Positions 4,639 through 44,534 of a stretch of 64,000 nucleotides of DNA are shown piece by piece. Below the pieces are notes generated by a model. That model was not told the DNA's origin. It searched no databases and saw only the letters and a program-made list of their open reading frames with translations. Within the stretch, counting starts at the first letter, position 1, and the number at the start of each line of letters is the position of its first letter. Source of the DNA: Sandarakinorhabdus glacialis (GTDB taxonomy: Bacteria > Pseudomonadota > Alphaproteobacteria > Sphingomonadales > Sphingomonadaceae). The DNA lies in contig NZ_BMJM01000003.1 of assembly GCF_014643455.1 (NCBI RefSeq), positions 1 to 64,000 of the forward strand, written 5' to 3'. The position numbers and the translations under genes were made by a program.

Positions 4639-6132
4639 TCAGCCTTCGGTGACGAAACACGCGCGGCCGGAAAAGGCGATCCGGGCGCACGCGTCGCGGG
4701 CTTTTTCGCGGCTGGCGAACGGCCCCATCTGGAGCCTGGTGACGGCGCCGTCGGAAGCGAAGATCGGCTTGTTGGCGGCGACGAGTTGCTTCTGCTTGAC
4801 CTTGACCTCGTCCCACGCCGCTTCGGCAAGTGCCTTTTGCGAAAAAGCGCCTAGCTGGACGCGCCATTCAGGGGGCTCCTTGCGGATCGGCCGGGCGGCG
4901 GGTGGGGGCGCCGGCTTGGCGAGGACTGCGACTTCGGTGGGCCTGGCCACAGGCGGAGCGACCGGCTTCGGCGCGGGGGCCGGAGCTCGGGCGGCGGCCG
5001 GAGCTGGGGCGGCGGCGAGTTGTTGCGACACGGCGGCGGGGATGTCGACGGTGCGGACCGGCGGCGCAGCCGGGCGGAGCGAGACAGCGGGCGCGGGGCG
5101 CGCGGCTGGCGGGGGCGGCTGGACCACCATCGCGGTCTGGGCGGGCGGGGGCGCGGGGCGGATGGCGGCGGTCTGCACCGGCGCCGTCTGCACTGGAACT
5201 GTCTGCACTGGTGGCCGCGCGGCTGCCGGTGCCGGGACGGGCGCCGGGCGGATTGCGGCGGTCTGCACCGGGGCCGGCTTCACGGGTGGCCGCACGGCTG
5301 CCGGCGCGGGGACGGGTGCCGGGCGAACGGCGGCAGTCTGGACAGGTGCCGGCTGGACCGGAGCCGGCTGGGCTTGCGCGGCCGATACCGCGGGCTGGGC
5401 GGCGGCGGTCTGCACGGGGGCTGGCTTGAGGATCTGGTCGCGGTGAAAGCGGTCGGGCGCGGCTGCGAGGGCAACCGGCGGCGGGCCGCCGAACACCGAG
5501 GGCACGCCGTTGCCGGCGGCGAGGCTGGCGGCGGTGGCGGCCCCGTTGGCGCGCTCGATTGCCGACAAATTGGCGCTGAGGGTAACGAGCGCGCTGGTGC
5601 CTTCGGGCAGGCCCTGTGCCGCGGCGCGCGACAAATAGGCATAGGCGAGCGTCAGGTTGCGCGGGATGCTGTCGCCGTTCCAGTTGGCGACACCCAGGAC
5701 ATATTGGGCGCGCATCTCGTTCTTGTCGGCGGCGGCGCGGAGCCAGCGGATGGCCTCCTGCTTTTCGCCGGCCTGGAAGAGCAGGATGCCGAGGTTGGCT
5801 TGCGCTGGAAGATGGCCCTTCAAGGCGGCGCGGCGATACCAGTCGCGGGCGATGACGACGTCCTTGGGCACGGCGCGGCCGAGCTTGTACGCCTGGCCGA
5901 TGTTGAACATCGCATCGGCATCGCCAGCGCTGGCGAACGGCGTCCACATCGCGACGGCGGCGGGATAGTCGCCGGTCCGCCACAGCTCGACGCCGGCGCG
6001 GACGCTCGGTTGCACGGGTGCCGGTGCTTCGGCGACGGGCGGCTTTTTCCGTGCCGCCAGCGCGGGGGCGGGCATTGCCAGCGGCGTCAACAGGCCGAGG
6101 ACTGCGACAGCGGTTAATCCTGTGCGTGCCAT
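4639..6132 (-). CDS. Secreted Sel1-like repeat protein with C-terminal SPOR domain
   Basis: 497 residues from ATG 6132. A signal peptide (VAVLGLLTPLAMPAPALA) is followed by Sel1/TPR-like repeats at about residues 45-180 (AMFNIGQAYKLGRAV, AQANLGILLFQAGEK, AQYVLGVANWNGDSI). Next comes a long low-complexity linker of repeated PAPVQTAA / RPAPVPAPAA units (about 230-400). The last 75 residues are a SPOR domain (WRVQLGAFSQKALAEAAWDE ... VTRLQMGPFASREKARDAC) that binds denuded septal peptidoglycan. The architecture predicts a periplasmic cell-division or cell-envelope protein. The start overlaps the end of the dihydroorotase-like gene by 19 bases. The linker repeats are also visible in the DNA (about 5160-5420) and could vary in number between strains. 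Confidence 0.85.
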   Translation of the reverse strand: MARTGLTAVAVLGLLTPLAMPAPALAARKKPPVAEAPAPVQPSVRAGVELWRTGDYPAAVAMWTPFASAGDADAMFNIGQAYKLGRAVPKDVVIARDWYRRAALKGHLPAQANLGILLFQAGEKQEAIRWLRAAADKNEMRAQYVLGVANWNGDSIPRNLTLAYAYLSRAAAQGLPEGTSALVTLSANLSAIERANGAATAASLAAGNGVPSVFGGPPPVALAAAPDRFHRDQILKPAPVQTAAAQPAVSAAQAQPAPVQPAPVQTAAVRPAPVPAPAAVRPPVKPAPVQTAAIRPAPVPAPAAARPPVQTVPVQTAPVQTAAIRPAPPPAQTAMVVQPPPPAARPAPAVSLRPAAPPVRTVDIPAAVSQQLAAAPAPAAARAPAPAPKPVAPPVARPTEVAVLAKPAPPPAARPIRKEPPEWRVQLGAFSQKALAEAAWDEVKVKQKQLVAANKPIFASDGAVTRLQMGPFASREKARDACARIAFSGRACFVTEG

Positions 6133-7349
6133 ACCAGCTCTCCCCCTTTTATAGTCATTTTTACGCGTCCGGCGACCGGCAGGCCATCGAACGGCGTGTT
6201 GCCGGCACCGATAAAGCGATCGCCGTCGATGCGCCACGGTGCATGTTCGTCGAAAAGCATAAGGTCGGCGGGTGACCCGAGGCTTAACGTGCCGCCGGCC
6301 AGACCGAAAAGTGCGGCGGGGGCGGCGGTCATGGTGTGCAGTGCCTGCGGCAGCGTCAGTGCGCCCGAGCGGACCAGCGACAGCGTCAACGCGAGCAGGG
6401 TCTCGGCACCGGCCATGCCGGGCTTTGCGTCGGCGAACGGCAGGCGTTTTTCTTCCTGGGTGCGTGGGTCGTGACCCGAGGCGATGACGGTGATGGTGCC
6501 GTCGGCGATGCCGGCTTCCACGGCGCGGCGGTCGTTGTCGCTGCGCAGCGGCGGCGACAGCCGGGCGAAGCTGCGGAAATCGGCGACCGATGTTTCGTTG
6601 AGCAGCCAGTGGGCGGGCGTAACGCCGGCGGTGATGGCGACTCCCCTGCCCTGCGCGGCGCGGACCAGGTCGATCGATTCGGCGGTGGTGATTTGGCGGA
6701 TATGGAGGCGGGCGCCGGTGGCTTCGGCGAGGCGGATGTCGCGGGCGACGGCGAGGCTTTCGGCGAAGGCGGGCGCGGCGGCGAGGCCGAGGCGGCTGGC
6801 ATAGTCGCCCTCGGTGGCGACAGCGCCGGCGGTGAGCGCGGTGTCCTCGGCGTGCGCGACGACGAGCATGCCGAAGGCGCGCGAATAGCTGAGCAGCCGG
6901 TGCATGACGGCGGTGCTGTCGATGGCGCGGCGGCCAGTCGCGGTGCCGACTGCGCCTGCCGCCTGGCAAAGGCCGATTTCGGCGAGCTCGTGGCCTTCAA
7001 GGCGCTGGGTCGCAGCGGCGAGCGGGTGGACCCAGACATCGGGTTTTCCCATGGCCTGCGAGAAGGCGATGAGGGCCGGGTCGTCGAGGGGGGGCGACTG
7101 GTCGGGCATGAGGACGACGCCGGTAATGCCGCCGGCGTGGCAGGCGCGGGCGTCGGCGCGGAAGACGCCGGCGTCGATGAGGCCGGGGGACAGGATGAGG
7201 CCGGTGGCGTCGATGATTTGGGCGTCTGCGGGGGGGGATTCTTGGCCGATGTGGGCGATGGTGCGGTCGCGGGTGATGACTGTTGCGATGGAGTCGAAAC
7301 CCGAGGCTGGATCGATTACGCGGGCGTTGGTTATGGCGAGCGGGGTCAT
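6114..7349 (-). CDS. pyrX: Dihydroorotase-like protein lacking catalytic residues (PyrX type)
   Basis: 411 residues of the amidohydrolase fold, directly downstream of pyrB with an ATGA overlap. The family metal site is lost. The strand that should read DxHVHLR reads [10 protein letters not shown], and about a dozen residues after it are missing. The usual TDHAPH is SGHDPR, although the following TQEEKRLPF is conserved. C-terminal features remain ([27 protein letters not shown]). Established precedent: in Pseudomonas and relatives a non-catalytic dihydroorotase homologue (PyrC'/PyrX) forms a dodecamer with PyrB and is needed for its assembly. The same structural role in aspartate transcarbamoylase is the best inference here; a separate active dihydroorotase should exist elsewhere. 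Confidence 0.8.
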
Positions 7350-16293: not shown

Positions 16294-16998
16294 TTAAGTT
16301 GGTGGAGTTTCATCACTACCCAGCGCGGGGCGATAGTTGAGAAGCCCAAGCGGACGCGGCGATAGCTCGTCCATTTCAGCAGCCAACAACTCCCGCCTTA
16401 CCTCTGCAATCGTGTACGTTGGGGAGATGCTTCCGGCTCGCTCATGCAATGACTCAATGGCGAGCTTTGCTAGGTCGCGTTCTAGGGCAATAGCGCCATC
16501 GGCAGGGAACCGCGGTATCAACGCCTCGAGTGTGCGCAGATATGTCGAATAGGGGTACTCGATACGTGCAAGTCGATAAGCCTGTACGAGGACCCAATCT
16601 TCTCGCTGCTTGCTCAATTTTGCCATGAGGCGCCGATGGGTCGATATTTCGCTTTGTCCCGGTGCAATAGCAGTACAGGCCTTTGCGATGGAGTAGTTTG
16701 AAACGAGCGTAAAAGGATCGCGGCCATCTAACCAAGTGCGCGCGTCAGCCTCTAAATGCGACCACATGAGCCTTATGTCCTTCTCGCGTGGCCGACCAGT
16801 TTTTGCCTTTGCCGCGCGCTTCGCCGCACCGAGAACTTCCGTCTTTCCGTAGATCCCACACAGCCGTGCAAGCTCCTCGTCCAATGTAGGGCGTTGAATC
16901 CCCGCTTGTGCATTGGCTATTTTTTCAGCGTAGTGCTCATGCCGCCACGACCTTGAGCGCCACGCCGCGCCCACCGTCGCAATAGTCTGCCCAGGCAT
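16294..16998 (-). CDS. Island protein of unknown function (up to 234 aa)
   Basis: Reading frame from 16998 overlaps the end of the integrase gene by about 60 bases. The first 20 residues (GQTIATVGAAWRSRSWRHEH) may be only an overlap artefact, but no later standard start precedes AEKIANAQAGIQRPTLDEEL. The middle has ARLCGIYGKTEVLGAAKRAA, GRPREKDIRLMWSHLEADAR and a helical, charged second half. No catalytic motif, membrane helix or family is recognised. The GRPRxKD phrase suggests possible nucleic-acid contact. Confidence 0.5.
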   Translation of the reverse strand: MPGQTIATVGAAWRSRSWRHEHYAEKIANAQAGIQRPTLDEELARLCGIYGKTEVLGAAKRAAKAKTGRPREKDIRLMWSHLEADARTWLDGRDPFTLVSNYSIAKACTAIAPGQSEISTHRRLMAKLSKQREDWVLVQAYRLARIEYPYSTYLRTLEALIPRFPADGAIALERDLAKLAIESLHERAGSISPTYTIAEVRRELLAAEMDELSPRPLGLLNYRPALGSDETPPT

Positions 16999-18121
16999 TC
17001 ATCATCACCCGTCGCCGATCCAGCAAAGTGCCGCGCCGATAGGCGGCGTCCGACTTGTTGCCGATGGCATGGGCTAAAGCCGCTTCCGATAATTCGTTAG
17101 GGAAGCCTGCAACCTCGCCGCACCAGTCTTTGAAGCTGGAGCGAAAGCCGTGCGGCTTGGCGGTCTCGCCCATGACGCGCAGCACCTTACCCATGGTGGC
17201 ATCGCTCAATGGCTTGCCGCTTTTTAGGCCGGGGAAAACCAGCGCGGCGTCATCGGTGCGGAGCGCCAGCGCCCGCTTGAAAACCGCCACGGCGGCTGGT
17301 GACAATGGGATAACGTGCGGCTTGTTGCGCTTCATGCGCTCTGCCGGGATCGACCAAAGGCCGGCGTCTAGGTCCAGCTCGTCCCATACCGCGCCCCGAA
17401 CCTCACCGCCGCGCGCCGCCGTCAGGATCATGGTTTCGAGCGCCAGCCGCCCGATGCTTTCACCGTCGCGGAGCCGTGCAATGAATGGCGCGACATCGGC
17501 GAAAGGCATCGCTTCGAAATGGCCGCGCTCCGCCGTCACCCTTGGCAGTCCCTTGGACAGCGCCCGCAATGGCGCTTCCGATTCCCGGTGGCCCTTCACA
17601 TAGGCCCAATCCAGCACCGCGCCGATGCGCTGGCGCACCCGCCGCGCGGTCTCATTCTTGTCGATCCAGATAGGCAACAGCACATCGAGGATTTCGCGCC
17701 GATCGATTTTGTTTACCGGCAAGTCGCCGATGACGGGATAGGCGTAGGTCTCCAGCGTCCTTATCCATTGCGTGCTGTGCTTCCCCTCACTCCACGCCCG
17801 CTTTTGCGCCTTGTGGACAGTCGCCGCGGCAACGCGGAACGTCGGCACGCCATCGGCCTTCTTGCGCTCTGCTACGGGGTCCAGGCCCGCCTCAAACTGC
17901 CCCCGCACCACGTCGCGCGCCTTGCGGGCGTCTGCCAGCGATAGCTTGTCGAGGCTGCCCAGCCCGAAATCGCGGCGCTTGCCGGCCTTTTGCATCCGGA
18001 CCAGCCACGACGCGGAGCCTGATTCGCCGACCTCGAGATACAATCCGCCGCCATCGGCATGACGCCCCGGCACCTTGCGGAGCTTTGGAATTGCAATTGC
18101 CTGTAGGATTGAGTTGGACAC
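16937..18121 (-). CDS. int: P4-type tyrosine recombinase (island integrase)
   Basis: 394 residues from GTG 18121, preceded by GGGGGGAAG. N-terminal arm-binding domain of the DUF4102 type (GRHADGGGLYLEVGESGSAS, FGLGSLDKLSLADARKARD) and catalytic domain with Arg in TAARGGEVRG, His-x-x-Arg in PHGFRSSFKDW, the later His in LAHAIGNKSD and the nucleophile Tyr in AAYRRGTLLDRRRVMM. Catalyses site-specific integration and excision. It starts about 140 bases from the 3' end of tRNA-Ser and reads away from it, the standard location for islands using that tRNA as target. A longer in-frame start exists at 18178 but has no conserved sequence. Confidence 0.9.
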   Translation of the reverse strand: MSNSILQAIAIPKLRKVPGRHADGGGLYLEVGESGSASWLVRMQKAGKRRDFGLGSLDKLSLADARKARDVVRGQFEAGLDPVAERKKADGVPTFRVAAATVHKAQKRAWSEGKHSTQWIRTLETYAYPVIGDLPVNKIDRREILDVLLPIWIDKNETARRVRQRIGAVLDWAYVKGHRESEAPLRALSKGLPRVTAERGHFEAMPFADVAPFIARLRDGESIGRLALETMILTAARGGEVRGAVWDELDLDAGLWSIPAERMKRNKPHVIPLSPAAVAVFKRALALRTDDAALVFPGLKSGKPLSDATMGKVLRVMGETAKPHGFRSSFKDWCGEVAGFPNELSEAALAHAIGNKSDAAYRRGTLLDRRRVMMNAWADYCDGGRGVALKVVAA

Positions 18122-18262
18122 GCGGTTTCTTCCCCCCAGCTTTCCCCACACTGTCACCCGGATTGTGACGAACAGCAAGGCACTGACGGGAACATGGGAC
18201 CGGCCACCCCCCTACGCAATGGGCGGATTTTGGAACGTCGGCGAGTGTCGGGGAAGGGGTAA

Positions 18263-38428: not shown

Positions 38429-39763
38429 TTATTCGGCGGGAACGTCGAAGGTTGTCAGCGTGCGGCTGCGTACGAGCATGCGCATCAGGGTATCGAGGCG
38501 CTCGCGCGCGGCGATGAACTGCGGCAGGTCGGCGCGAGCGATGGCGAAATCGACTTCGCTGTTGGCGCTGACGTCGATGTAGAGGCGGACGCGCTCGAGC
38601 ATGTAGCTTAAGCCCGAGCGGAACCACGGACAGCGGCCGCCGATCGCGGTCTGCAGCAGCGCCAGCGCGTCCTCGTGCTGGCCCAGCCGGGCGAGGAGTT
38701 CGGCGCGCAGGATCGGGATATCGGGGAGCGCGGGCGACAGGCGGCCGAGCGAGGTCAGCCACGCGTCGAGGCCAGAGAGTTCGTTGGCGCGGAGCAGCAC
38801 ATAGGCGCCGGTGACAGCGCGCAGGACCGAGCCGCCGGGGCTGAGCATGGCGCGTTCGCCCTGGTTGACCATGTCCTCGGAGACCGTCCACATTTCAGTG
38901 AGGACGCCGTTTTCGACAAAGGACAACAGGGTGTTGGCCTCCTCGGTGACGGTCGAGCGGAAGCGGACGAAGGACCCGGCGGGACCGGACGCGAGGTTGG
39001 CGGCGATGTCCTTGGTGCCGGGCGTGTCGTCGACGCAGGCGGTGCATTCGTCGAACGGGACGACCGAATAACGGACGCAGGCGCCGATCGGCTGGGCGAC
39101 GAGCTGGTCGCAATCGGCGATGCGGGCGATTTGGGTGGGCTGGTCTTGGGAGAGGATGAAGGTCTCGCCGAGGCCGGCTTCGAGTGCGGGGTGACGCGAG
39201 CCGGGGACAGCATCCCAGGCGGCGAACCAGTTGCCTTGCCAGAGACGGACGGTCTCGGTCGTGGGAGCTGGGGCGGCAGGCGGCGGCGGGGTCGGTGCGT
39301 CCGCCATGACGCTCTCGGCGGCGACGAAACCCCGGGTCATGCGGTTGTAGATCTGTTTGGCAGCGATGCGGACGGCTTCGCGGATCAGCTGTTGGCCGTG
39401 AGGAATGCGTGCCGGAGCGGATGCGCTAGCTGGTGCCAGAGCGGATGCGCTAGCTGGTTCTGGAGCGGCTGCGCCGACCGGGGCGGGAGCGAGCGCTCGC
39501 GGCGGGGCGGGCGCGCGCCCCGCCGGTGTCCGTGATATCGTGTCCGCGCCGGCGGTGACGGTGACGGTCTCGCCGCAACTGCGCTCGCGGCCATCGGGTG
39601 TCACCACCGAGACGAAATAGAGCCCCGGCGGCACGCCGATCGGCGAGCCCGAGACGCCGACGCCGATAATCTCGCCGTCGGGGGTGCGGACCTTGACCGG
39701 CAGCGGGCCGAGGCTTCGCTCGGCGGCCGGGCCATCGCAAGTGATGGTGCCGAACTCGCTCAC
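38429..39763 (-). CDS. Multidomain partner protein of the caspase operon (444 aa, function unknown)
   Basis: Starts at GTG 39763, overlapping the caspase stop by four bases (GTGA). The N-terminal 80 residues look like a beta-sandwich (ITCDGPAAERSLGPLPVKVR, GVPPGLYFVSVVTPDGRERS). A Pro/Ala/Ser linker follows (about 80-115), part of it encoded by a 24-bp tandem repeat. Next is a helical stretch (GQQLIREAVRIAAKQIYNRM), then a globular domain of about 150 residues with paired Cys (DCDQLVAQPIGACVRYSVVP, DECTACVDDTPG). The last 100 residues include one TPR-like helix pair (RAELLARLGQHEDALALLQT). No signal peptide or membrane helix is seen. No family recognised. The end position in an operon with two proteases suggests a substrate, sensor or scaffold, which is inference. 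Confidence 0.75.
   Translation of the reverse strand: MSEFGTITCDGPAAERSLGPLPVKVRTPDGEIIGVGVSGSPIGVPPGLYFVSVVTPDGRERSCGETVTVTAGADTISRTPAGRAPAPPRALAPAPVGAAAPEPASASALAPASASAPARIPHGQQLIREAVRIAAKQIYNRMTRGFVAAESVMADAPTPPPPAAPAPTTETVRLWQGNWFAAWDAVPGSRHPALEAGLGETFILSQDQPTQIARIADCDQLVAQPIGACVRYSVVPFDECTACVDDTPGTKDIAANLASGPAGSFVRFRSTVTEEANTLLSFVENGVLTEMWTVSEDMVNQGERAMLSPGGSVLRAVTGAYVLLRANELSGLDAWLTSLGRLSPALPDIPILRAELLARLGQHEDALALLQTAIGGRCPWFRSGLSYMLERVRLYIDVSANSEVDFAIARADLPQFIAARERLDTLMRMLVRSRTLTTFDVPAE
39414..39468. repeat. 24-bp tandem repeat in the linker of the 444-aa gene
   Basis: Unit GGAGCGGATGCGCTAGCTGG-TGCC (39414-39437) is repeated at 39438-39461 with three changes and begins a third time at 39462 (GGAGCGG). 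The length is a multiple of three, so copy-number change would keep the frame. It encodes alternating Ala/Ser/Pro octapeptides (PASASALA-type). Confidence 0.8.
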
Positions 39764-40959
39764 GGCACGCTTGCCAGATCGAAGGTCCATGGCATCGGCA
39801 TCTGGATCGAGAAATAGGTGACCTCGGAACTGGCCTGCGCAAAGCGGTTCGACGATGGCTGCACCGTCATGCGGTACTGCCCGGCGGTGATCGGGATCGA
39901 CAATTGCATCTCCCCGATGCCCGGCACCGGCGTGACCTTGTTGGTGTTGATCTCGGTCATCGAGACGCCGCCGACATGGCCCTTGTAGTCGGCGGGTTCG
40001 AGCCAGACCTTGAGTGTCATTTCCGGAGCGTCGCGGCGGAAGCAGAGCACCGGGTTGGAGACCAGCCCGGTCAGCTCGACACGCGCGTCGAACAGCGCAT
40101 CGGCGACTTCGATGCCGGCCTTCAATGACGAGGCGTTGACTGGCCAGACGCTGCCCTTGATGCCGGCGACGCTCTGTTTGCCGAACGAGCCGTTTTCGAG
40201 CGCCCACAGCAGCGCCAGCCCGAAATAGGTCGGTTTGCCGGCTTCACCCGCCGCGACGCCGCCGGTGGTGGTGGCGAAGAAGATGGGCGCCTTGCGATCG
40301 TCGTAGATGTTGAGATCGGCGGTGAAGATGGCCGGCGGATCGATCGGGTCGATGCCGTCGAGCGCCTCGGGCTTGTCGCGACAGGCATCGACGAAGAAAA
40401 ATTGCTCGCGGCCGATATCGGGGCGCTTGGCCGACGGCGCCATGCCGTTGCGGATGTTGCTGAGGCGAAAGCTGCGCGACATCTCGGCGAACGGCTGTTC
40501 GAGGAAATCCTGGGCGAGCAGGATCGATTCCTCGAGCGAACGCCGTACGCCGTGGCCGCTGAACAGAAACAGCGCCTGGTTTTCGGCCTGGGTCGCCACG
40601 TCGATGCGCCAGTTGAGGAGGGCGAGCTCGATATTCCTGATGGTCGGAGCAACCAGCCCCGGAGCGGCGAGCGCGGGGTCGACGGCGATCTCCTCGGGCG
40701 ATGGTGCCACCAGCAGGCGGATGGTCGCCAGCGGGCGCATCAGCCGCTTGTCGGTGTCGAGCCTTTGCAGTTTCGCCGACAGCGCCATCGCCGTCAGCGC
40801 CGAGGATTTGAGCTGGCGCAGCGCCAGCAGGCCAGTGCCGGGCGGGTCGTCGGCGGCCGGCAGGAAAGTGTAGTCGCTGACGCCGATCAGCACGGCGTGG
40901 AGGCCGGGATTGCCCAGCAGTGCGGCGCGGCGGTCGAGGATCAGGGCGGGATCAGCCAC
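39760..40959 (-). CDS. Caspase-family cysteine protease (peptidase C14)
   Basis: 399 residues. The caspase-hemoglobinase fold begins HAVLIGVSDYTFLPAADDPP near residue 21. The catalytic dyad is His136 in ALFLFSGHGVRR and Cys193 in QFFFVDACRDKPEAL, each after a hydrophobic strand as required. The C-terminal 130 residues are beta-rich (PEMTLKVWLEPADYKGHVGG, LSIPITAGQYRMTVQPSSNR) and may be a binding domain. No signal peptide, so cytoplasmic. Start overlaps the astacin gene end by eight bases. Bacterial caspase-like proteases act in regulated cell death, antiphage defence and developmental control. The operon partners here (astacin, small membrane proteins) are not a combination I recognise. Confidence 0.88.
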   Translation of the reverse strand: MADPALILDRRAALLGNPGLHAVLIGVSDYTFLPAADDPPGTGLLALRQLKSSALTAMALSAKLQRLDTDKRLMRPLATIRLLVAPSPEEIAVDPALAAPGLVAPTIRNIELALLNWRIDVATQAENQALFLFSGHGVRRSLEESILLAQDFLEQPFAEMSRSFRLSNIRNGMAPSAKRPDIGREQFFFVDACRDKPEALDGIDPIDPPAIFTADLNIYDDRKAPIFFATTTGGVAAGEAGKPTYFGLALLWALENGSFGKQSVAGIKGSVWPVNASSLKAGIEVADALFDARVELTGLVSNPVLCFRRDAPEMTLKVWLEPADYKGHVGGVSMTEINTNKVTPVPGIGEMQLSIPITAGQYRMTVQPSSNRFAQASSEVTYFSIQMPMPWTFDLASVP

Positions 40960-41785
40960 TCAGGCTGGCCTTGGGCACGCCGGCGTAAAGCGCCTCGACC
41001 GCAGCGATATCGCCGGCGCTGAGCGCGTCGCGCTGGCCCATGACGACGCCGGGGGGCACGGGCTTCAAGGGAATGATGGTGCGGCTGCCCGGCGTGACCG
41101 CAAAGGCGTTGGCGGGGTAATGCATGATCGAGCCATAATCGTAGAAGCCGACGTCGATGGTCTTGACGATCTGCTGTTCGAAATTGTGCTCGGTGCCGGG
41201 GCGGGCGTTGTCGGTGTCGATCCTGACCCATTTGTCGCGGTCGATGCGGCATTGCTCGTGCCACAGGCCGACGGCGTGGCCGATCTCGTGGATGATGTTG
41301 CCGGTGGTGCAATTGTCCATGAGAATGATGTCCTGGACGCCGCCCTGCCGGCCGACCTGCGAGGCGCAACCGCGCGGATCGGTCTTGAAGCGCAGCCAGT
41401 CGGGCTGGTTGGTGCGCGGCACGAAGCGGATGCCGGTGCGGGCGTTCCAATGGTCGATGGCGGCGGTGACGCGGGCGGGATTGGGAAGACCAGCGGCGAT
41501 TTCGTACGGGACGATGCGGTTTTTCCAGCGATATTGCTCACCCTTGATGCCGGCGCCTTCGAGGTGGACGTCGCTCGATTCGAGCAATTTCGGCATGGAT
41601 TTCAGGTTCTTCGCGAACGCGGCGGTGCTTTTTTCGATCTCGTCGGTGGTGCCGAGGATGATGCAGCCTTCGAAGACCGCGAGGCCATCGACATTGGCGT
41701 AGCGGACCTGTTTCCAGGCGCTGCCATGCGGTTTGATCCAGGTGGTGCGGATGTCGTCGCTTTCCATGAAACCTTCGCTGCACAT
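40952..41785 (-). CDS. Astacin-family (M12A) zinc metalloprotease without signal peptide
   Basis: 277 residues. Zinc motif His166-Glu167-x-x-His170-x-x-Gly-x-x-His176-Glu177 (HEIGHAVGLWHEQCR) and Met-turn at about 219-223 (GSIMHYP, with the Tyr ligand) define an astacin. The catalytic domain starts near RWKNRIVPYEIAAGLPNPAR (residues 86-105) and holds the usual FVPRTNQPDWLRF segment. The first 80 residues could be a propeptide. Astacins are normally secreted, but no export signal is seen, which is unusual and fits joint action with the cytoplasmic caspase encoded next. Eighteen bases separate it from the upstream membrane-protein gene. Confidence 0.88.
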   Translation of the reverse strand: MCSEGFMESDDIRTTWIKPHGSAWKQVRYANVDGLAVFEGCIILGTTDEIEKSTAAFAKNLKSMPKLLESSDVHLEGAGIKGEQYRWKNRIVPYEIAAGLPNPARVTAAIDHWNARTGIRFVPRTNQPDWLRFKTDPRGCASQVGRQGGVQDIILMDNCTTGNIIHEIGHAVGLWHEQCRIDRDKWVRIDTDNARPGTEHNFEQQIVKTIDVGFYDYGSIMHYPANAFAVTPGSRTIIPLKPVPPGVVMGQRDALSAGDIAAVEALYAGVPKASLSG

Positions 41786-41803
41786 GATGTGTTGCCCCCT
41801 GCC

Positions 41804-42241
41804 CTATTTGATTTCACGGGCCGCAGAACCGGCGGCGATGCCTGCCGTAACGGCGGCGCTGACGATGCTCGCGGCCGGCGGCGGTTCGTCGAAGCTGTAG
41901 GTCGGCTGGGCGCTCTCGCCGGGAATGGTTTCACCGACGCCAAGCGACTTGCGCCGGCCATCGAGGAAATAATCGGCGCCAAAGTTTTTCGACAGGCCGA
42001 CAAGGACGACGAGCACAGGGAAATAGCTGAAAAAGCCGATGGCGAGGCCGAGGCCATAGGCGCCGAACAGGCGTTCGGAGGCTGCACCGAACAGGCTGGT
42101 CACCGCAGCGCCGCCGACCGCGCCGAGGATGGTGGTGATATCGGTGAACGAGGCTTCGGATTTTCGATAGCGATTGACGAAATACAGGAACCAGCCGATC
42201 ACCAGCCCGAAGCCGAGCGCGCCTGTTTCGGGCATCGTCAT
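41804..42241 (-). CDS. Small membrane protein of the caspase-astacin operon (145 aa)
   Basis: Two or three membrane segments: ALGFGLVIGWFLYFVNRY (residues 8-25), a Gly/Ala-rich stretch TTILGAVGGAAVTSLFGA (36-53), and GLAIGFFSYFPVLVVLVGL (65-83). A soluble linker with Pro/Glu (GESAQPTYSFDEPPPA) follows, and a final Ala-rich hydrophobic helix (ASIVSAAVTAGIAAGSAA). The Gly-rich second segment looks like those of small pore- or scaffold-forming proteins, but no family is recognised. Four-base overlap with the upstream membrane-protein gene. Confidence 0.75.
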   Translation of the reverse strand: MTMPETGALGFGLVIGWFLYFVNRYRKSEASFTDITTILGAVGGAAVTSLFGAASERLFGAYGLGLAIGFFSYFPVLVVLVGLSKNFGADYFLDGRRKSLGVGETIPGESAQPTYSFDEPPPAASIVSAAVTAGIAAGSAAREIK

Positions 42242-42567
42242 CGCACTGTTCCCCTTGTCGGAATCGCGGCCCGCAGCGCGGCGTGTGCGGCGGCGCCCAG
42301 CCCGAAGCCGGCGTAAAACGGCGACAAGGGGAGACTGATCCGCAGTGCCAATACGGGCACCGGCATCAGCCAGATCAGGCCGATGCCGAACAGGCCGAGC
42401 GCCGATAATATCGTTACCGGCCAGCGCAGGAACAGCGCCGACCAGCCGGCAACTGCGCCGATTGCGAACACGGAAAGCCCCAGCCCGACCATATCAGTCC
42501 CCGCCACAGTCAAGGAAGTCGCAACTATTGTTGCTGATATCCCAATTGCTCGCCCGTATTGTGACAT
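42238..42567 (-). CDS. Small polytopic membrane protein, first gene of the caspase-astacin operon (109 aa)
   Basis: From ATG 42567. Four hydrophobic segments fill most of the protein: GISATIVATSLTVAGTDM, GLGLSVFAIGAVAGWSALFL, VTILSALGLFGIGLIWLMPV and SPFYAGFGLGAAAHAALRAA. No family recognised. It begins 134 bases from the divergent diheme cytochrome gene, so the intergenic region 42568-42701 must carry the promoters of both transcripts. An upstream in-frame start at 42606 is possible but adds only a basic, non-hydrophobic stretch. Confidence 0.7.
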   Translation of the reverse strand: MSQYGRAIGISATIVATSLTVAGTDMVGLGLSVFAIGAVAGWSALFLRWPVTILSALGLFGIGLIWLMPVPVLALRISLPLSPFYAGFGLGAAAHAALRAAIPTRGTVR

Positions 42568-42701
42568 TACATCAAATTTGGCGGCAAAGCCACGCCGGCT
42601 GCACACCGCCGGCTCTTGCGTAAAGTGCGCCGGTGTGAAACCATTTGGATAATCAAAAAAGTTCCTCGGATCGCAGACTTGTCTTGAGGGGACTGGGGAC
42701 C

Positions 42702-44534
42702 ATGCGTTTCGTATTTCTGTCGCTTGCCGGCATCGCCGCCGCGGCCGGGCTGGCTTCGGGCTGCGTACCCGAGACCGGCGCCGGCGCCACCAGTCCGCGC
42801 AGCCAGGGCTGGACCGAAAAGGATCGCTATGGCTGGTATCGGGGCACGCAGGGGTCGCGCCTGATGCCGTTGGCGTGGTTCGCGGCGCTCAAGCAGCCGG
42901 GCGGCGCGGGGCTTTTGTCTGACGAGAAATATCTGACCGGGTTCGGATATATCCCGGCGGCGGCGAGCGATCCGATCCGGATGCCGATCGGCTTCGTCAT
43001 CGACAGGCAGCGCGACGACAGCTTCAAGGTGACCAATTTGCGCTGGTATGCCGGGCAGAAGGGCGACAGCCCGCAGGCGGCCGAGCCGTGGCTGGGTCTG
43101 AACTGCGCCGCCTGCCACACCACCGAGATCGCCTATGACGGCAAGCCGATGCGGATCGACGGCGGGCCCGGGCTAGGCGATTACCAGTCGCTGGTCGAGG
43201 CGATCGACAAGAGCCTGATCGAGACGCGGCGCGATCCGGCGCGGTTCGATCGCTTTGCGGCGCGGGTGCTTGAGGGCAAGGACAATGCGGGCAACCGGAC
43301 GCAATTGCAGGGGGCGCTCGACGGGTTGATCGACTGGCAGGCGCGCACCGAGGCGCTCAACGGTACGCCGCTGCGCTCGGGCTATGCGCGGGTCGATGCG
43401 TTCGGGCATATCTATAACAAGATCGTGATGTTTGCCGGCGCGCCCGACCCGATCGTCAACCCCGCCGATGCGCCGGTCAGCTATCCATTCCTGTGGAACA
43501 TCCACAAGCAGCGCCAGGTCCAGTGGAACGGCGGGGCGCAGAACGGCCGGTTGAGCCTGGGGGGCAACAAGACGCTCGAATATGGCGCGATGGGGCGCAA
43601 TGCCGGCGAAGTCATCGGGGTGTTCGGCGAGGTGATGGTGCAGCCGGTCGGCGGGATCGGCAGCCAGTTGAAGGGCTTTCCATCGAGCTTCAACGCCGCC
43701 AATCTCGACTCGCTCGAGGTCGTGCTGGCGCGGCTGGAGCCGCCGAAATGGCCAGCGGCGTTTCCCCGGATCGACACGGCGAAGGCGTCTGTCGGCCAAG
43801 TGCTTTTCGCGCGAGATTGTGCCGGCTGCCACAAGACGCCCGACAAGCAGGTTGCCGGGCAGCCGACCGAGACGATGCACCGTTTCGGCGCCACCGCTGC
43901 GAACAATCTGACCGACATCTGGATGGCCTGCAACGCCTTCACCTATGACGGGCGCAGCGGCGGGTTGAAGGGGACAAAGGAGGGGTATTTCAGTGGCACG
44001 CCGCTGCCGGGGGTGGCGCCGGTCGGGACGATGCTGGCGACGACGGTGAAGGGTGCGCTGGTCGGCAAGAAGGGCCAGATCCTGAAAACCGCGGGCAACA
44101 GCTTCTTCGGGGTCGATCGCCCGCCCGAAGTGTTTGCCTTCGATACGACGGGCATGACGGCGCGGCAGGCGCGCGACATGCGGCGGCAATTGTGCAGCAC
44201 GACCGATCACGCGCTGCTGGCGTACAAGGCGCGGCCGCTGGATGGCATCTGGGCGACGGCGCCGTATCTCCACAATGGCTCGGTGCCGACACTGTACGAC
44301 CTGTTGTTGCCGGCTGCGCAGCGACCGAAGAGCTTTGCGCTGGGGACGCGCAGCTATGACCCCGGCAAGGTCGGTTATGCGGCGGCGGCGCCCGACAACC
44401 GGTTCATCTTTGCCACCGTGGACGGTGGTGGCCGCCCGATCGACGGCAACAGCAACGCCGGGCATGATTATGGTGCCAGCCGGATCAGCGACGCCGATCG
44501 CTGGGCGCTGGTCGAATATATGAAGACGCTTTGA
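42702..44534 (+). CDS. Diheme cytochrome c, RoxA/MauG-like lipoprotein
   Basis: 610 residues from ATG 42702. Lipoprotein-type signal: VFLSLAGIAAAAGLASGC, with lipobox Cys. Two c-type heme sites: CAACHTTE near residue 130 and CAGCHKTP near 380. The sequence around GIWATAPYLHNGSVPTLYDL and the tail KSFALGTRSYDPGKVGY are characteristic of the RoxA-like branch of the cytochrome c peroxidase/MauG group, which includes rubber oxygenase. Those proteins use one heme to bind oxygen. Expected in the periplasm or at the inner face of the outer membrane. The P450 gene follows with its ATG overlapping this stop (TTTGATGG), so an oxidative lipid or polymer pathway is plausible. Confidence 0.88.
   Translation: MRFVFLSLAGIAAAAGLASGCVPETGAGATSPRSQGWTEKDRYGWYRGTQGSRLMPLAWFAALKQPGGAGLLSDEKYLTGFGYIPAAASDPIRMPIGFVIDRQRDDSFKVTNLRWYAGQKGDSPQAAEPWLGLNCAACHTTEIAYDGKPMRIDGGPGLGDYQSLVEAIDKSLIETRRDPARFDRFAARVLEGKDNAGNRTQLQGALDGLIDWQARTEALNGTPLRSGYARVDAFGHIYNKIVMFAGAPDPIVNPADAPVSYPFLWNIHKQRQVQWNGGAQNGRLSLGGNKTLEYGAMGRNAGEVIGVFGEVMVQPVGGIGSQLKGFPSSFNAANLDSLEVVLARLEPPKWPAAFPRIDTAKASVGQVLFARDCAGCHKTPDKQVAGQPTETMHRFGATAANNLTDIWMACNAFTYDGRSGGLKGTKEGYFSGTPLPGVAPVGTMLATTVKGALVGKKGQILKTAGNSFFGVDRPPEVFAFDTTGMTARQARDMRRQLCSTTDHALLAYKARPLDGIWATAPYLHNGSVPTLYDLLLPAAQRPKSFALGTRSYDPGKVGYAAAAPDNRFIFATVDGGGRPIDGNSNAGHDYGASRISDADRWALVEYMKTL

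Follow-up and report, generated by a model that had tools for sequence, protein, structure and literature searches.

An operon of Sandarakinorhabdus glacialis in which a canu-type caspase pair probably controls an astacin zymogen

We analysed a 64,000-nucleotide stretch of Sandarakinorhabdus glacialis (NZ_BMJM01000003.1; this whole stretch is called the window) and found that a five-gene operon at 38429-42567 is probably a defence operon of the canu type with an exchanged effector, in which a CanA-CanB trigger would unlock a cytosolic astacin zymogen held by a cysteine switch; we put the probability of this reading at roughly 0.6. The caspase-nuclease defence system canu, published in Science in 2025, consists of a MALT1-like caspase (CanA), its co-purifying partner CanB and a metallo-beta-lactamase (MBL) pro-nuclease (CanC) activated by CanAB, and KaeCanABC confers resistance to phage T4 on E. 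coli (PMC12799240). What is known in the operon is a caspase pair of the canu kind; what is new is a different effector, an astacin with a canu-type trigger. The coordinates of the open reading frames (ORFs) bore out the layout described in an initial annotation of the sequence, with five minus-strand genes joined, in gene order, by a 4-bp overlap, an 18-bp gap, an 8-bp overlap and a 4-bp overlap.

A CanA-CanB pair in the operon

The caspase gene (39760..40959, minus strand) encodes 399 residues with the dyad His136/Cys193 and a C-terminal all-beta domain. The protein matches Peptidase_C14 (PF00656) in hmmscan (1e-6, 29 bits, cut-off 21.4), although a PF00656 search of the window's own genome did not recover even this caspase. 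For the 444-residue protein encoded directly downstream (38429..39763, minus strand), Pfam gave TPR matches below threshold only. Its model is weak (pLDDT 52.5, pTM 0.43) and was used solely for the C-terminal repeat and the N-terminal beta part. The protein comprises an N-terminal beta domain, a Pro/Ala-rich linker and a TPR-like C-terminus.

Further plasmid loci carry genes for a caspase and a ~420-residue protein, with a third gene of ~350 residues, and where the third gene is of the MBL type, this corresponds to the CanA-CanB-CanC layout of canu. The third gene of one of these, from Rhizobium leguminosarum (L015), matches LmuA, RTasMBL and Avs1a in PADLOC. Profiles of the CanA, CanB and CanC types were built solely from six loci whose third gene is of the MBL type; those for CanA and CanB recognise the window caspase (4.9e-36) and the 444-residue protein (3.1e-11). 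On these sequence matches, the two proteins are very probably homologues of canu CanA and CanB, and the claim of the initial annotation that the gene set lacks a described counterpart falls for this pair. The catalytic dyad, correctly described there as intact, is invariant among 15 CanA-type sequences. As in canu, the caspase is MALT1-like in fold, carries a C-terminal Ig-like beta domain and is adjoined directly downstream by a CanB-type gene. The 444-residue protein had been proposed as a sensor, scaffold or substrate; because it has the position and sequence of a CanB, and the CanA caspase and CanB of canu are joined in a complex (PMC12799240), a role as scaffold or sensor appears more plausible, and that of a substrate fits less well.

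Unlike canu, the operon has an astacin and two membrane proteins, and no CanC-type MBL nuclease with gating insertions was found: the CanC profile gave no match at E 0.1 in the window or in eight other astacin loci, over 64 kb of DNA for the window and 8.9-20.6 kb for each locus. On this negative search, the possibility that the window encodes CanC at another place was rejected. In its caspase with variable partners, the operon also resembles the EACC1-caspase and CATRA conflict systems (PMC7159879, PMC8195603, PMC12657218), but the window caspase scores 16.2 bits with the model of the EACC1-associated caspase (NF047832), for which the cut-off is 140.

A cysteine in the astacin pro-segment

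The astacin gene (40952..41785, minus strand) encodes 277 residues, with an N-terminal pro-segment and a catalytic domain, and its product is the predicted zymogen effector. It matches Astacin (PF01400) at 2e-46 and has relatives in the PDB, among them BMP1 and astacin. The protein belongs to the M12A family by its catalytic domain, its HExxHxxGxxHE zinc site HEIGHAVGLWHE (residues 166-177; 41255..41290, minus strand) and its Met-turn SIMHYP. Intact motifs and a missing signal peptide had both been noted previously, and both were upheld: no Kyte-Doolittle peak reaches 1.6, and no segment resembles a signal peptide. A plain secreted astacin was rejected, as there is no hydrophobic N-terminus.

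The pro-segments of animal astacins share the motif FXGDI, whose Asp blocks the zinc, and the bacterial myroilysin has a cysteine lock, with the FXGDI motif reported absent (PMC9848320, PMC9629494). The window astacin shares with both a catalytic domain preceded by a pro-segment. Unlike the animal enzymes, it has no signal peptide, and Cys replaces Asp in the FXG-I frame (FEGD to FEGC); unlike myroilysin, it keeps that frame and again lacks a signal peptide. The residue in question, Cys41, is encoded within FEGCI at 41663..41665 (minus strand), and we infer from its alignment column that it may block the zinc as the cysteine switch of a cytosolic zymogen.

We aligned 88 astacins, comprising the best 80 from a scan of genome contigs, the window sequence and seven plasmid sequences, with Deinococcus and Flammeovirga sequences excluded. 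Among these, nine come from loci that also carry CanA-type and CanB-type genes (trio loci), and eight of the nine have Cys in the switch column, 118-125 residues upstream of HExxH. The 79 astacins outside trio loci have Asp (71), Cys (6), Ala (1) or a gap (1). The association of Cys with the trio gives a Fisher p of 4e-7 in a test that ignores kinship.

Four of the Cys-type astacins outside trio loci have peptidase genes close by, of the M6 type in two (L047, 9351-10916; L051, 5294-6901), a possible further pairing of two proteases, and for other, non-CanA caspases in two cyanobacterial loci (L076 and L086). Separately, a small YscW/YbaY-like gene with Pfam YscW matches lies near Cys-switch astacins in L003 (6737-7117), L048 (2089-2439) and L059 (8135-8503), and L076 and L086 have starts similar to that gene.

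Recurrence of the three genes

The trio, defined as an astacin, a CanA-type caspase and a CanB-type protein resembling the 444-residue one, was found in nine loci: the window, two plasmids and 6 of 80 astacin loci, the latter being the best 80 of 473 relatives from the genome-contig scan with an astacin alignment. In a tblastn search of plasmids, the caspase matched 15 records and the astacin 18, and two records have both side by side. In Pararhizobium gei (NZ_CP119410), the order is astacin, caspase (4-bp overlap) and a 1374-residue protein, the N-terminal part of which is related to the 444-residue protein (5e-8) and is followed by trypsin and phospholipase D (PLD) domains; the other plasmid is that of Bradyrhizobium barranii (NZ_CP096257). 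The remaining loci are from Ideonella (L040), an uncultured member of the Sphingomonadales (L044), Methylomonas (L048), Skermanella (L067), Mesorhizobium (L106) and Bradyrhizobium huanghuaihaiense (L046), in the last of which CanA-CanB lie on the opposite strand and converge with the astacin gene.

CanA-type caspases are rare, with more than 100 bits against the CanA profile in only two genomes besides the window's own among 289 of the class, so the recurrence of the trio is more than chance; a chance neighbourhood of astacin and CanA-CanB was rejected, as it recurs in nine loci. An order-level search (up to 396 genomes, own included) gave one other match for the caspase and two for the astacin, all three weak and partial, and the astacin alignment gave one weak match besides the own genome among 398 genomes of the phylum. 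None of 56 candidate stretches from a genome-contig scan with a two-sequence alignment was confirmed, nor was any of 29 from a viral-contig scan with a CanA alignment.

A tree was built from 21 CanA sequences. Seven of those that have an astacin as partner group in one clade (100/99), and the CanA of L046 is sister to that of the MBL-type locus L015 (100/98). Mapping the astacin label onto this tree takes three changes, two of which are required by branches with good support, and repeated pairing of astacin with CanA-CanB appears to be the simplest reading. Other CanA-type loci have lipase-like neighbours, among them L017 with a Tle1-like phospholipase and L009 with a divergent patatin; lipase-like genes beside CanA in L166, L168 and L171 were matched weakly by alpha/beta hydrolase models.

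Additional outputs beside the trio

The operon begins with two genes for small membrane proteins, TM109 (109 residues; 42238..42567, minus strand), which has no Pfam match, and TM145 (145 residues; 41804..42241, minus strand). Kyte-Doolittle peaks of at least 1.6 number three in TM109 and two in TM145, so the segment counts given in the initial annotation (two to four, and four) were roughly right at most. Nor are the two genes constant partners of the proteases, as had been supposed: TM145 occurs in three of the nine trio loci (window, L044 and L067), and TM109 gave a marginal 15-residue match (E 0.02) in L044 only. The TM145 part in L067 is extended at its C-terminus by a domain that matches NlpC/P60 weakly (0.0096). 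A PLD-family enzyme is fused to CanB in L003, L004 and L106 and encoded by a separate gene in L040. Either TM145 or the PLD-family enzyme is thus present in seven of nine trio loci, the two never together, and neither is present in L046 or L048.

TM145-like genes also lie near CHAT-domain genes, without an astacin, in all five of the plasmid records found in actinobacteria, from Nonomuraea, Rhodococcus and three Streptomyces (L115, L116, L117, L118 and L173), two of which have identical proteins. In both of the latter, the closest CHAT match scores 23.2 against a Pfam cut-off of 24, and the annotated CHAT gene lies one gene further. One Nonomuraea ORF (P0007) was not used, as its frame differs from that of the TM145-like match. 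The association of TM145 with CHAT genes is apparently uncharacterised. Because TM145 recurs in three of nine trio loci and near CHAT genes without an astacin, it may be a further output of the system.

Discussion

In the mechanism that we propose, infection would be sensed by CanA-CanB and the caspase switched on; the active caspase would cut the pro-segment of the astacin, Cys41 would leave the zinc, and the active metalloprotease freed in the cytosol would damage, arrest or kill the infected cell. TM145 (window, L044 and L067) or the PLD-family enzyme (L003, L004, L106 and L040) would provide a further output, on which one of the two proteases acts. The intracellular cascade of two proteases suggested earlier survives in outline, with both proteases together in nine loci and an astacin that has a pro-segment and no export signal, but its caspase pair is of a kind already described. 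Likewise, the idea that caspase and astacin travel together fails for astacins at large and stands for the Cys-switch subgroup beside CanA-CanB.

Several points weigh against this reading. The direction of the cascade, its cleavage sites, its trigger and a role in phage defence are drawn from gene content and from analogy with canu, and likeness to canu was judged through the MBL-type loci and the published description rather than KaeCanABC's own sequences. Three of the six MBL-type third genes score above the Pfam Lactamase_B cut-off and three below it, and the CanC search had the bounded span given above. In comparisons of the caspase model, MALT1 and a plant metacaspase (16.6) lie within 1 Z of each other and so tie, and around the active site the model is in places poor (pLDDT < 50). 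Most astacins of the window kind do not travel with this caspase, since 74 of the 80 loci are without CanA-CanB. Six Cys-type astacins sit outside trios, the divergent ninth trio astacin (L004, B. barranii) has Asp aligned, without certainty, in the switch column, and the Fisher test takes no account of kinship. The CanA tree is also compatible with one gain followed by losses, and the trio astacins are not resolved as a group in the astacin tree. G+C content is equal in operon and window (0.660 and 0.657). The neighbourhood of defence genes envisaged at the outset is not evident: the window has no recognisable defence island, and none of ten window genes tested has a PADLOC match at 1e-3.

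Among the alternatives, TM145 could be the main effector, cut or released by the caspase so that the inner membrane is damaged, with the astacin as amplifier or accessory. CHAT proteases and caspases belong to the same clan, and the proximity of TM145 homologues to CHAT genes in all five plasmid records, as well as the alternation of TM145 and the PLD enzyme among trio loci, would suit this view. However, TM145 is absent from six of nine trio loci (the astacin's presence in all nine follows from how they were selected), the nearest CHAT match is just under the cut-off in two of the five plasmid records, and the C-terminal extension in L067 suggests an anchor, not a pore; we regard this alternative as unlikely. 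A reversed order, with the astacin as activator of the caspase or of CanB and with other targets for CanA, draws on the presence of both proteases in one operon, from whose sequence direction cannot be read. It is hardly probable, given that the zymogen lock is on the astacin, that the astacin varies by locus and CanA-CanB are constant, and that CanAB is the activator in canu (PMC12799240).

We also give little credence to the view that the operon, together with the divergent genes for a RoxA-like cytochrome and P450, is part of a metabolic or redox unit: a RoxA-like gene lies divergently beside the astacin or operon in the window, L044, L091 and L113, but none was seen in the other seven trio loci, although it was not searched for in all, and in G008 it occurs with P450 and without the operon. 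Least credible is an exported or injected LegP-like astacin that lies beside the caspase gene by accident, for although the NCBIfam LegP profile (NF045530) matches over nearly the full length at 1.3e-81, the score of 273.7 bits is under the curated cut-off of 300, no segment resembles a signal peptide, and the astacin, in an operon with the caspase, adjoins CanA-CanB recurrently in nine loci.

If the canu-type reading with an exchanged effector is true, the operon family would be a case of what the canu paper proposes, namely that proteolytically activated non-nuclease enzymes may serve antiviral immunity (PMC12799240), with a caspase-type trigger coupled to an intracellular metalloprotease zymogen, and the caspase-astacin cascade would parallel the protease cascades of animal cell death. 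The trio loci offer a natural set of astacins with Cys at the FXGD position. Searches of the open-access literature listed no report of a bacterial astacin beside a caspase, a limited scope that cannot prove absence, and the canu paper nowhere uses the word astacin in its main text (PMC12799240). The pattern suggests that bacteria swap the weapon and keep the trigger. A broader, tentative extension is that CanA-CanB may be a general bacterial caspase trigger into whose effector slot different proteins have moved again and again (MBL nuclease, astacin zymogen, lipase-type hydrolases, PLD), that the astacin form may be a true intracellular two-protease cascade with a hybrid lock (animal-type FXG-I frame, Cys for Asp), and that TM145 may found a family of membrane outputs gated by proteases of the caspase/CHAT clan.

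Genomic surroundings

TM109 has an alternative GTG start at 42606, which would give 122 residues. The divergent intergenic region between the operon and the RoxA-like gene (42568..42644) is the probable promoter region; no sigma-70-type match was found in 42568-42644. A tyrosine integrase gene with an arm-binding domain lies at 16937-18178, ~20 kb from the operon. An empty-site search found AsnC next to FAD-oxidase genes in G004 and G007 and RoxA-like next to P450 genes in G008, but no genome with the two flanks of the operon joined. CanA-CanB were not found beside the astacin of L091 or L113, which lacks a pro-segment. The RoxA-like gene is divergent to the operon in the window (42645-44534) and L044 (4287-6194), and to the pro-less astacin in L091 (~4950-6755) and L113 (~4888-6723).

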